From: Acidobacteriota bacterium
GTDB lineage: Bacteria > Aquificota > Aquificia > Aquificales > Aquificaceae
NCBI GenBank assembly: GCA_003696155.1
Contig: RFFP01000022.1
Coordinates: forward strand, 62,001 to 126,000
Direction: 5' to 3'
DNA: 64,000 bases
Shown here: positions 17,626-19,869 of the stretch, one piece after another
Layout: every line of letters starts with the position of its first letter
How positions within the stretch are numbered: position 1 is the first letter of the stretch
Notes under the pieces: generated by a model
Seen by the model: only the letters and a program-made list of their open reading frames with translations
The model's database searches: none
What the model was told of the DNA's origin: nothing
Made by a program: the position numbers and the translations under genes

Positions 17626-19800
17626 TCAAAGAAGTTTTATCAAATCCTCCAACTTCTGGGCATCAGTAAAGCTGGTAGAAAGGTGCGCCTCTGGATGTCC
17701 ATAAAGACCGCACAGGGTAGCTATTTTCGTATCCGTATGCTTTTTTAAGAGTCTTATAACAAAGTCCGTCCTGTAGCAGTGGACTCCTACAAGAAGGGTA
17801 AGGTCGTGTCTTCCGTGGAGCACCGCGTGGTGTGGGTTGGGTGGGTCCATCTCCACAGCTGGGTCGTACTTTTTGAGCTTTGGTCTGTAGTCGGGCAATA
17901 CCTTTACGTTGAACCTACCCACCTTCTCTATGAGTTCCCTGAGCTTAATCGCCTTATCTTGGAGCTCAACCTCCCCAAAGTCCCAAAATAGAAGGGGGCC
18001 TATAACTAAGGTGGGTCTTTCCGATTCCCTTATGCATCTTGCCAAGAGTTCTAAGGCCTCTCTGTATGGGACGGTTTTTTCCCCTATGGTTGCCTCTCCC
18101 CTAAATACTTCCTTTTGCATGGATGTCCTGGTCCTGTCCTCCTGCGGAGTGGGAACAGCCTTGGGTATCTTGTAATAGGAGGGCTTGAAGTCTTCAAAGT
18201 ACGGTGATAGGGTAAAGCTCTGCTCCTTCCTTGTATGGCTCCCTTCCACGTCCTCTTTCATCTCCATACTCATGTAGAGCTCTTCCTTCATGAGGTCTAG
18301 CTCTACGGTAAACTCCCCGTGGTAAGCTCTTTCCTCCTCTTCCACACCTAAACTGTAGCAGGTGGTGCCAACTATGTCAAAGAGTACACCCTTTGCTCCT
18401 ATCTCCGATGCCTTTCTGAATATCTCGTACCTCTTCTCGTAAAACTCATAGCAGCAGTGCCCTACGTAGGTATAACCCTCTTGAGCACACCACAGGAGGG
18501 TGTCCCTTAAAAGCTCGAAGGAGGTTATGGTTATGGGAATCATACCCTTCTGGTAGGCAAGCCTGTAAGCATCCCCCACTGTACACCCTCCACACTCACC
18601 GCAGTCGTCAAGGTGTCTGTAATCGCACCATCTGGGTTTTGCGCAGTAGGGCAAAAGCATAACCTTTGCACTGGCAAGATTTTCTATCAAGCCTCCCCCT
18701 ATGCTTGCTATGATGTTATTCAGTCTTTTTTTTTCCATACCTAGCTCTAAACCCTCCACCTTACGAAGGGGAAAGAGAACAGCTTCAACAAAGTCCTCCA
18801 CGCTCAGGTTCAAGCCCTCCCACTCTCTGCTGGAGAAGAACTCTCTTACTCTCCTTTCCACATCCTGTATGGGTGTGTGCTTGAGGTATGCCTCAAGGTC
18901 GTATATGAGCCTCTGAGGTTTTACAAAAAAGTCTCCGTTTATTATTATCTGCTGAAGAACTGAGCCATCTACCTTGGTAGAAACCCTAAAGGTCCCACCT
19001 AGGCACCTGTATATACCGAAGAGCATTTCTTCACCCTGCGGAGCCTTCTTCACATGGTATATCCACTCCTCGCTCCCAAAGTATTCTTCCCTTTCCTCTA
19101 AAAGCTTTCTCTCCTCCTCTGTGAGCTCCCCCCACTGTGTCTCTATACCAAGCTCCTCTTCTAGGCCTTCTAAAATGGCCTCAAAGATCTTCTCCTTCTG
19201 TGGAATGTAGCCAAGTAGCCTCTTTACCCACTCCACCCTATCCTCTGCGGACTTTATACCCTTTGATGTGAGCTTTTCTACGGGTATCTGTAGGGACTTT
19301 AGCATACGCTCCACATTGAAGTCCATGAGCACGGTGCCCTGATATAAGAAAAACTTACCCTCAAAAACACCGCCCGTGCCCGATATCTTTCTACCTTCTA
19401 CCTCTATGTCGTTGCGAGGCCTGAACTCCGCCTTTATACCGAGCTTTTGAAGACCCTTTGCCACACCTGTGCATATCTTCCTTGTTAGCTCCTCGTAACT
19501 AATGCTTCCAAGCTCTTCAAGGTTCCCTATGACCTCCCACCCTATCTGGGTTTCATCAAAGTATATGGCACCCCCACCTGTGATACGCCTACCCACCTCT
19601 ATACCCTCTCTCTGGGTGTACTCAAGCCTTACCTCCTGCTCCACAGCCTGATGGAAACCTATTAGAACGCATTCAGGCTTGAATTGCAAAAACCTTATGG
19701 TGCTTGGAATCTTGCCCTCCGCCCTCAGGTCGAGCATTATCCTGTCTAGGGCTATGTTCTCCTTCTGAGGTCTCTGACCTGTATAGACAACTCGCCACAT
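17626..19800 (-). CDS. Lipoate-protein ligase - DUF116 - CdhB-like triple fusion
   Basis: 724 aa from the ATG at 19800, which has the strong Shine-Dalgarno GGAGGAAG; in-frame reading extends to 19863 but looks non-coding. Residues 1-330: LplA fold, with LRAEGKIPSTIRFLQF, RRITGGGAIYFDE (71 on) and GRKISGTGG. Residues about 355-505: a DUF116-like Cys-rich domain with LLPYCAKPRWC, then CGECGGC (Cys 386, 392, 400, 403, 406), CC at 449-450 and Cys481, suggesting Fe-S binding. Residues about 575-724: similarity to the epsilon subunit of CO dehydrogenase/acetyl-CoA synthase (RPTLVIGPLLF, HDLTLLVGVHCYRTDFVIRL, HPEAHLSTSF). It should act on lipoylation. Why the other domains are attached is unknown. 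Confidence 0.82.
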   Translation of the reverse strand: MWRVVYTGQRPQKENIALDRIMLDLRAEGKIPSTIRFLQFKPECVLIGFHQAVEQEVRLEYTQREGIEVGRRITGGGAIYFDETQIGWEVIGNLEELGSISYEELTRKICTGVAKGLQKLGIKAEFRPRNDIEVEGRKISGTGGVFEGKFFLYQGTVLMDFNVERMLKSLQIPVEKLTSKGIKSAEDRVEWVKRLLGYIPQKEKIFEAILEGLEEELGIETQWGELTEEERKLLEEREEYFGSEEWIYHVKKAPQGEEMLFGIYRCLGGTFRVSTKVDGSVLQQIIINGDFFVKPQRLIYDLEAYLKHTPIQDVERRVREFFSSREWEGLNLSVEDFVEAVLFPLRKVEGLELGMEKKRLNNIIASIGGGLIENLASAKVMLLPYCAKPRWCDYRHLDDCGECGGCTVGDAYRLAYQKGMIPITITSFELLRDTLLWCAQEGYTYVGHCCYEFYEKRYEIFRKASEIGAKGVLFDIVGTTCYSLGVEEEERAYHGEFTVELDLMKEELYMSMEMKEDVEGSHTRKEQSFTLSPYFEDFKPSYYKIPKAVPTPQEDRTRTSMQKEVFRGEATIGEKTVPYREALELLARCIRESERPTLVIGPLLFWDFGEVELQDKAIKLRELIEKVGRFNVKVLPDYRPKLKKYDPAVEMDPPNPHHAVLHGRHDLTLLVGVHCYRTDFVIRLLKKHTDTKIATLCGLYGHPEAHLSTSFTDAQKLEDLIKLL

Positions 19801-19869
19801 GACTTCCTCCTTCTCCTTATGGATAATTTTAATGTTCCGAGCCCCGCTTACCTCTGATGGCAATCATAG

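Follow-up and report, generated by a model that had tools for sequence, protein, structure and literature searches.

A lipoate ligase fused to a cysteine-rich DUF116 domain in Aquificaceae, a probable component of the LipS1/LipS2 route of lipoate assembly

In the sLpl(AB)-LipS1/LipS2 pathway of lipoate assembly (PMC10332631, PMC6067878), the sulfur at C8 is introduced by LipS2 and that at C6 by LipS1; both are radical-SAM proteins with an auxiliary [4Fe-4S] cluster that is thought to be the sulfur source (PMC9585515). LipT is a suggested electron donor (PMC10332631), and the LipM of B. subtilis does not modify the LbpA of A. aeolicus, aq_402 (PMC6067878). DUF116 proteins were earlier predicted to be metal-binding, flavodoxin-like and active in electron transfer (PMC5898192). 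Neither pathway paper (PMC10332631, PMC6067878) names DUF116 in its main text; within the open-access literature DUF116 or COG1852 was found in one paper, and in none together with lipoate. The five-subunit PFOR/OGOR of Aquifex has delta subunits with no assigned role (PMC10052474).

We analysed a window of 64,000 nucleotides, which on its minus strand carries a reading frame open over 724 codons. The initial annotation had described this chain as a triple fusion of a lipoate ligase, a DUF116-like domain and a CdhB-like domain. The following features were found:

17626..19800, minus strand: fusion gene, 724 aa, in the order LplA-LplB-DUF116-CO_dh
19805..19810, minus strand: ribosome-binding sequence GGAGGA, 4 bases (AGTC) upstream of the fusion ATG
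19162..19764, minus strand: lipoyl protein ligase catalytic domain, residues 13-213, PF21948 (LplA-B_cat), E 3.8e-43
19387..19590, minus strand: ligase motifs RRITGGG (residues 71-77) and NDIEVEGRKISGTGG including K138, intact in the window
18778..19017, minus strand: LplB accessory domain, residues 262-341, NF053749, E 7.3e-12
18286..18741, minus strand: DUF116-type domain, about residues 354-505, PF01976
18358..18645, minus strand: eight invariant cysteines, C386, C392, C400, C403, C406, C449, C450 and C481, putative Fe-S site(s)
17647..18105, minus strand: CO_dh / POR-FOR-delta-like domain, residues 566-718, PF02552, E 4.6e-32

All three domains of the proposed fusion were matched by Pfam in the single chain; of the two regions on which the proposal hung, the C-terminal CdhB-type part matches PF02552 (111.5 bits, cut-off 21) and the region 355-505 matches PF01976 slightly below its curated cut-off in this sequence and above it in most orthologues, so that the proposal is not refuted. 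The ATG lies at 19800-19798 behind a strong ribosome-binding sequence, and a conserved 'MWR' start supports it over an upstream TTG. The catalytic domain scored 148 bits with PF21948 against a cut-off of 27. The ligase half resembles LplA crystal structures by sequence, as does its AlphaFold model by structure (Foldseek E down to 4e-23). The catalytic-type lysine is K138 of the NDIEVEGRKISGTGG motif, and the RRxTGGG and ND..K motifs with this lysine are present in the window and in Aquificaceae except Hydrogenobaculum. The LplB domain reached 45.3 bits against the NF053749 equivalog cut-off of 65, and 19.1 bits (E 1e-3) against a cut-off of 24 with PF10437; it follows LplA in the same order as in LplA structures. 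The ligase part is a bidomain lipoate ligase (LplA+LplB). No operon partner was found in the window, where argH, a DegT-type aminotransferase gene and flagellar genes lie nearby; argH and the aminotransferase gene are the neighbours, and none of lipS1, lipS2, lbpA or sHdr is adjacent to the fusion in this genome.

The DUF116 match of the window protein covers residues 354-426 with E 9e-5 and 22.4 bits against a curated Pfam cut-off of 25, and the six-frame search gave 25.7 bits. Of the 51 Aquificota genomes with a DUF116 match, all but one exceed this cut-off (50 genomes, up to 36 bits); distant relatives reach 46 bits, and orthologues and relatives lie mostly between 25 and 46 bits. Nine cysteines had been put forward as a likely Fe-S pattern, and eight of them are invariant wherever covered, in 77-81 of 81 rows from Bacteria and Archaea, while the ninth, C438, is not. 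The same eight are also invariant in A4. They comprise a CxxCxxC motif (C400-x2-C403-x2-C406), the CC pair 449/450 and three others; C386, C449 and C450 were partly selected for, having been included in the two search peptides, and the other five were not. The ligase motifs show less conservation than these cysteines. The model of the domain (161 aa, pLDDT 89, pTM 0.85) shows a Rossmann-like alpha/beta fold, consistent with the flavodoxin-like prediction of PMC5898192. Its comparison with the PDB gave no significant structural relative, the weak alpha/beta matches having E 0.07 or worse, and a sequence-profile search of the PDB gave nothing credible. The domain is probably an Fe-S domain.

A search of relatives with the DUF116 region alone led to 43 loci (L209-L251) beyond the main Aquificaceae set, which include a divergent Aquificaceae locus with a free DUF116 (L209) and two fragments ended by a contig edge (L241, L251). 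LplA-DUF116 proteins were found in Nitrospirota, Chloroflexota, Desulfarculus, Bacillota MAGs, archaea and sulfur-oxidising Proteobacteria. Leaving aside these three loci, DUF116 is C-terminal in proteins of mostly 500-535 aa, and none of them has the CO_dh domain. Where the ligase motifs are intact (16 loci), at least one of lipS1/lipS2, lipT and lbpA stands beside the fusion in 12. A LipT-like gene is the most frequent of these neighbours, at 11 loci, followed by lipS1/lipS2 at 9 and lbpA at 5. The four exceptions are L249, whose contig ends just past the gene, and three archaeal loci, beside which no lipS gene was found. The common order in Nitrospirota, Chloroflexota, Desulfarculus and Bacillota MAGs is (DsrE-lbpA)-lipS1-[LplA-DUF116]-lipT-lipS2 or a near variant, for example lbpA-lipS1-[LplA-DUF116]-lipT-lipS2 in L215. 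In L228, a complete sHdr operon is followed by lbpA, lbpA, LplA2, gcvH, [LplA-DUF116], lipT, lipS2 and lipS1. The radical-SAM genes of these clusters were identified as LipS1 and LipS2 with NCBIfam models. In the archaeal genomes G145 and G150 (L261, L262), lipS1 lies beside an LplA2-type ligase and a LbpA/GcvH-like gene, and LplA-DUF116 is encoded elsewhere in the genome.

The phyletic pattern agrees with the gene clusters. LipS1 is present in 32 of the 39 non-Aquificota genomes with LplA-DUF116, compared to 2 of 14 control genomes. Among 88 good-quality Aquificota genomes, both are found in 38, the fusion only in one, LipS1 only in none and neither in 49, the separate tallies being 39 and 38; the pattern is clade-structured and corresponds to few independent events. 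Genus g10 has sHdr and LipA and lacks the fusion, LipS1 and a close LipT-like gene, while Hydrogenobaculum (g5) has the fusion, LipS1 and sHdr without LipA. The fusion therefore follows the LipS1/S2 lipoyl synthase route rather than sHdr as such, and a strict link between fusion and sHdr was rejected on the g10 genomes and on several LplA-DUF116 genomes in which the sHdrB2 match is weak or absent. No DUF116 match was found in the LipS1-bearing controls Thermotoga maritima and Sulfolobus acidocaldarius, and DUF116 is therefore not obligatory or universal in the LipS1/S2 pathway. The co-occurrence of sHdr, LbpA and the fusion, called for as a check, was found, the window genome having all three. 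The suggestion that the protein joins lipoyl attachment with sulfur insertion for the LbpA/sHdr system is supported in part, by the neighbourhoods and the phyletic pattern, and needs refining in that the fusion tracks LipS1/S2 and not sHdr itself. The proposed tie to glycine cleavage stays weak: gcvH-gcvPA was seen near the fusion, at a distance of about 3 kb, in no more than a few genomes of g3.

We consider, with a probability of about 0.7, that the fusion is an octanoate/lipoate:protein ligase of the sLpl(AB) type acting in the LipS1/LipS2 pathway, joined to a dedicated predicted Fe-S module, DUF116. Judging from the intact motifs, LplA-LplB would adenylate octanoate or lipoate and load a GcvH-like carrier, most likely the LbpA of the sHdr system. 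DUF116, as its eight invariant cysteines and alpha/beta fold suggest, would hold one or two Fe-S clusters near the octanoylated carrier, where it may assist LipS2 and LipS1 in their radical-SAM insertion of sulfur, as an electron donor acting with LipT or as a means of restoring the auxiliary clusters that these enzymes sacrifice. More speculatively, the delta-like domain might attach the complex to PFOR/OGOR, its ferredoxin or another low-potential source of electrons.

The cysteines could also be those of a sulfur relay, in which DUF116 would hand persulfide sulfur from DsrE/TusA-like carriers or a cysteine desulfurase to LipS1/S2 or to the lipoyl carrier. DsrE-like genes do occur within the clusters L214, L215, L222, L228 and L229, and neither the CC pair 449/450 nor C481 varies. 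However, eight invariant cysteines with a CxxCxxC motif look more like cluster ligands, and it is electron transfer that was predicted for DUF116 in the literature (PMC5898192); we regard the relay as unlikely.

The two halves have fared differently in lineages where the ligase has changed. The fused ligase of Hydrogenobaculum is shorter by 33 N-terminal residues and lacks both RRITGGG and the K138 motif; identity to the window protein is 33% for the ligase half, 78% for DUF116 and 66% for CO_dh, and another gene elsewhere encodes a separate ligase whose motifs are intact. One such ligase, in the Hydrogenobaculum-type genome G030 (no LipA), lies at 7300-8310 of L096 and is 45% identical to the window LplA domain. 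In sulfur-oxidising Proteobacteria, lbpA-lipS1-sLpl-lipT clusters carry an intact ligase and the LplA-DUF116 paralogue stands elsewhere. The motif of this paralogue is changed; after the K it may read LASAF or IASAF, for example, where ISGTGG would be expected. Altered motifs were seen in L210-L213, L216, L217, L220, L225-L227, L230-L236, L238-L240, L242, L244, L246 and L247; some Proteobacteria have two LplA-DUF116 copies (L232 and L244 share a genome), and L236 holds two DUF116 matches within a single locus. A tree of LplA sequences separates the altered proteobacterial fusions, as one group, from the separate ligases encoded in the clusters, the tree carrying long branches and its deeper joins not being relied on. 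The uncoupling of ligase and DUF116 is seen less strongly in Proteobacteria than in Hydrogenobaculum. Since DUF116 is still 78% identical where the ligase motifs are lost, the economical reading of these sequences is that DUF116 has a function of its own, apart from the fused ligase activity. A ligase domain without motifs may persist as a platform for carrier recognition.

These observations also bear on the simpler view that the protein is a mere scavenging or octanoate ligase for LbpA/GcvH, its C-terminal half being a structural or redox-sensor add-on that switches lipoylation with no role in sulfur insertion. In favour of this view, the window protein keeps its ligase motifs, and some LipS1 genomes, such as those of Proteobacteria with an intact-motif sLpl, have a cluster ligase without DUF116, so that the ligase itself does not need this domain. 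A ligase-only protein nevertheless fits poorly with the Hydrogenobaculum case, with cysteines better conserved than the ligase motifs and with the tracking of LipS1 by LplA-DUF116, and we judge it quite improbable.

Within the Aquificaceae (family f1), the three-domain order is kept in most members, with some copies split or altered. An alignment of 43 full-length Aquificaceae fusion sequences, all in this order, contains 304 invariant positions; a chance or artefactual origin of the fusion is therefore excluded. The split members usually encode LplA and DUF116-CO_dh as neighbouring frames. In genome G049 (L043, 271-753), a free DUF116 protein of 169 aa without CO_dh lies beside LplA, and the next frame reads like Ffh. 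No conserved gene order flanking the fusion was seen across Aquificaceae. In family f2 genomes the fusion was not found, though CO_dh delta-type proteins occur there. The widespread core is LplA-DUF116, to which Aquificaceae alone join the third domain.

As to this third domain, the window genome encodes two free CO_dh-family proteins, each beside a 2-oxoacid:ferredoxin oxidoreductase alpha subunit, which correspond to delta subunits of five-subunit PFOR/OGOR; one of them is 30% identical to the fused domain. By sequence, the fused domain is nearest to this POR/FOR-delta branch of pyruvate/2-oxoglutarate:ferredoxin oxidoreductases and not to a Wood-Ljungdahl enzyme. A replacement of LipT by the domain was also considered and rejected, most fusion-bearing Aquificaceae having a LipT-like protein (36-44% identity).

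A role in carbon fixation would follow if the delta-like domain tethered the ligase to PFOR/OGOR and the protein matured or regulated enzymes of the reductive TCA cycle, a reading that draws on the 30% identity and on the use of this cycle for CO2 fixation in the lineage (PMC10052474, for Aquifex). We hold it to be very improbable, as CO_dh delta-type proteins are found in family f2 genomes without the fusion and the two-domain relatives of other phyla have no CO_dh domain. POR/FOR enzymes are, moreover, not known to be lipoylated. That the fusion is left over from a CODH/ACS system, as the Pfam family name CO_dh might suggest, has a negligible chance of being correct: the NCBIfam cdhB equivalog gave 15.4 bits against a cut-off of 101.2, solved CODH-epsilon chains in the PDB gave only E 0.18 or worse, and A. 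aeolicus has no ACS genes (PMC10052474). With the cdhB model failed and the epsilon chains so distant, the CODH link of the third domain is therefore a matter of family name and not of function.

Returning to the ligase with its predicted Fe-S module, we examined the other lipoate and sulfur genes of the window genome. The sHdrB2 gene is found at C27:34726, and LbpA and LipS1 are likewise encoded on C27. A second LplA-type gene is present (L002, C20) and could serve LbpA too; a relative of this gene adjoins lipS1 in two archaeal genomes. Besides lipS1/lipS2 there are two lipA genes, at C5:7059 and C25:53536 (L117, L115), so that the genome combines two lipoyl-synthase systems; a pair of lipA genes is likewise present in several genomes of genera g1 and g4. 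Because of the second LplA-type gene and the two lipA genes, the acceptor of the fusion is not fixed to LbpA: it could be LbpA or another GcvH-like protein, Aquificaceae having several GcvH-like genes. In the Aquifex-type genome G001, lbpA and then lipS1 stand at the end of the sHdr operon (L088, 12599-14113), and by coordinate some 0.87 Mb separate them from the fusion.

More tentatively, and at somewhat below even odds, this DUF116 subfamily may be an unrecognised, dedicated component of the LipS1/LipS2 system, an Fe-S protein that provides electrons or replaces sacrificed clusters, with LplA as the platform recognising the octanoylated carrier even without its motifs, and, in Aquificaceae, with the POR-delta-like domain coupling this step to the low-potential ferredoxin pool of the reductive TCA cycle. 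The findings on the fusion and its relatives give DUF116, a domain of unknown function, a concrete and testable role, and the recently described LipS1/S2 lipoate pathway a likely missing part, one that bears on its electron and sulfur supply, where LipT is a suggested donor. The fusion is also a candidate for the enzyme that modifies LbpA in Aquifex and Hydrogenobacter. What is new here is the assignment of DUF116 to lipoate assembly for sulfur oxidation, through the gene clusters of its relatives.

Compared with known systems, the fusion shares with the sLpl(AB)-LipS1/S2 pathway (PMC10332631, PMC6067878) an LplA+LplB ligase with intact motifs; its relatives cluster with lipS1, lipS2, lipT and lbpA, and the Aquificota fusion tracks LipS1 and LipT-like genes. 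Unlike sLpl(AB), it carries a C-terminal DUF116 and, in Aquificaceae, a POR-delta-like domain. The NF053790 family (LplA_LipA_fuse) likewise joins a ligase to a sulfur-insertion function, but its partner is the radical-SAM LipA, whereas that of the fusion is a cysteine-rich domain that is not radical-SAM. With the DUF116 family (PF01976, COG1852, arCOG02078) it has in common the alpha/beta domain, CxxCxxC and further conserved cysteines; the members published from archaea have a membrane anchor and are encoded close to genes for sulfite/nitrite reductase or ATPase, while the subfamily described here is joined to LplA and tied to lipoate assembly. Finally, the delta subunit of the five-subunit PFOR/OGOR (PMC10052474) shares with the fusion the CO_dh family and the DYRPK, GVHC and GH motifs, but it is a free enzyme subunit there and the third domain of a ligase chain here.
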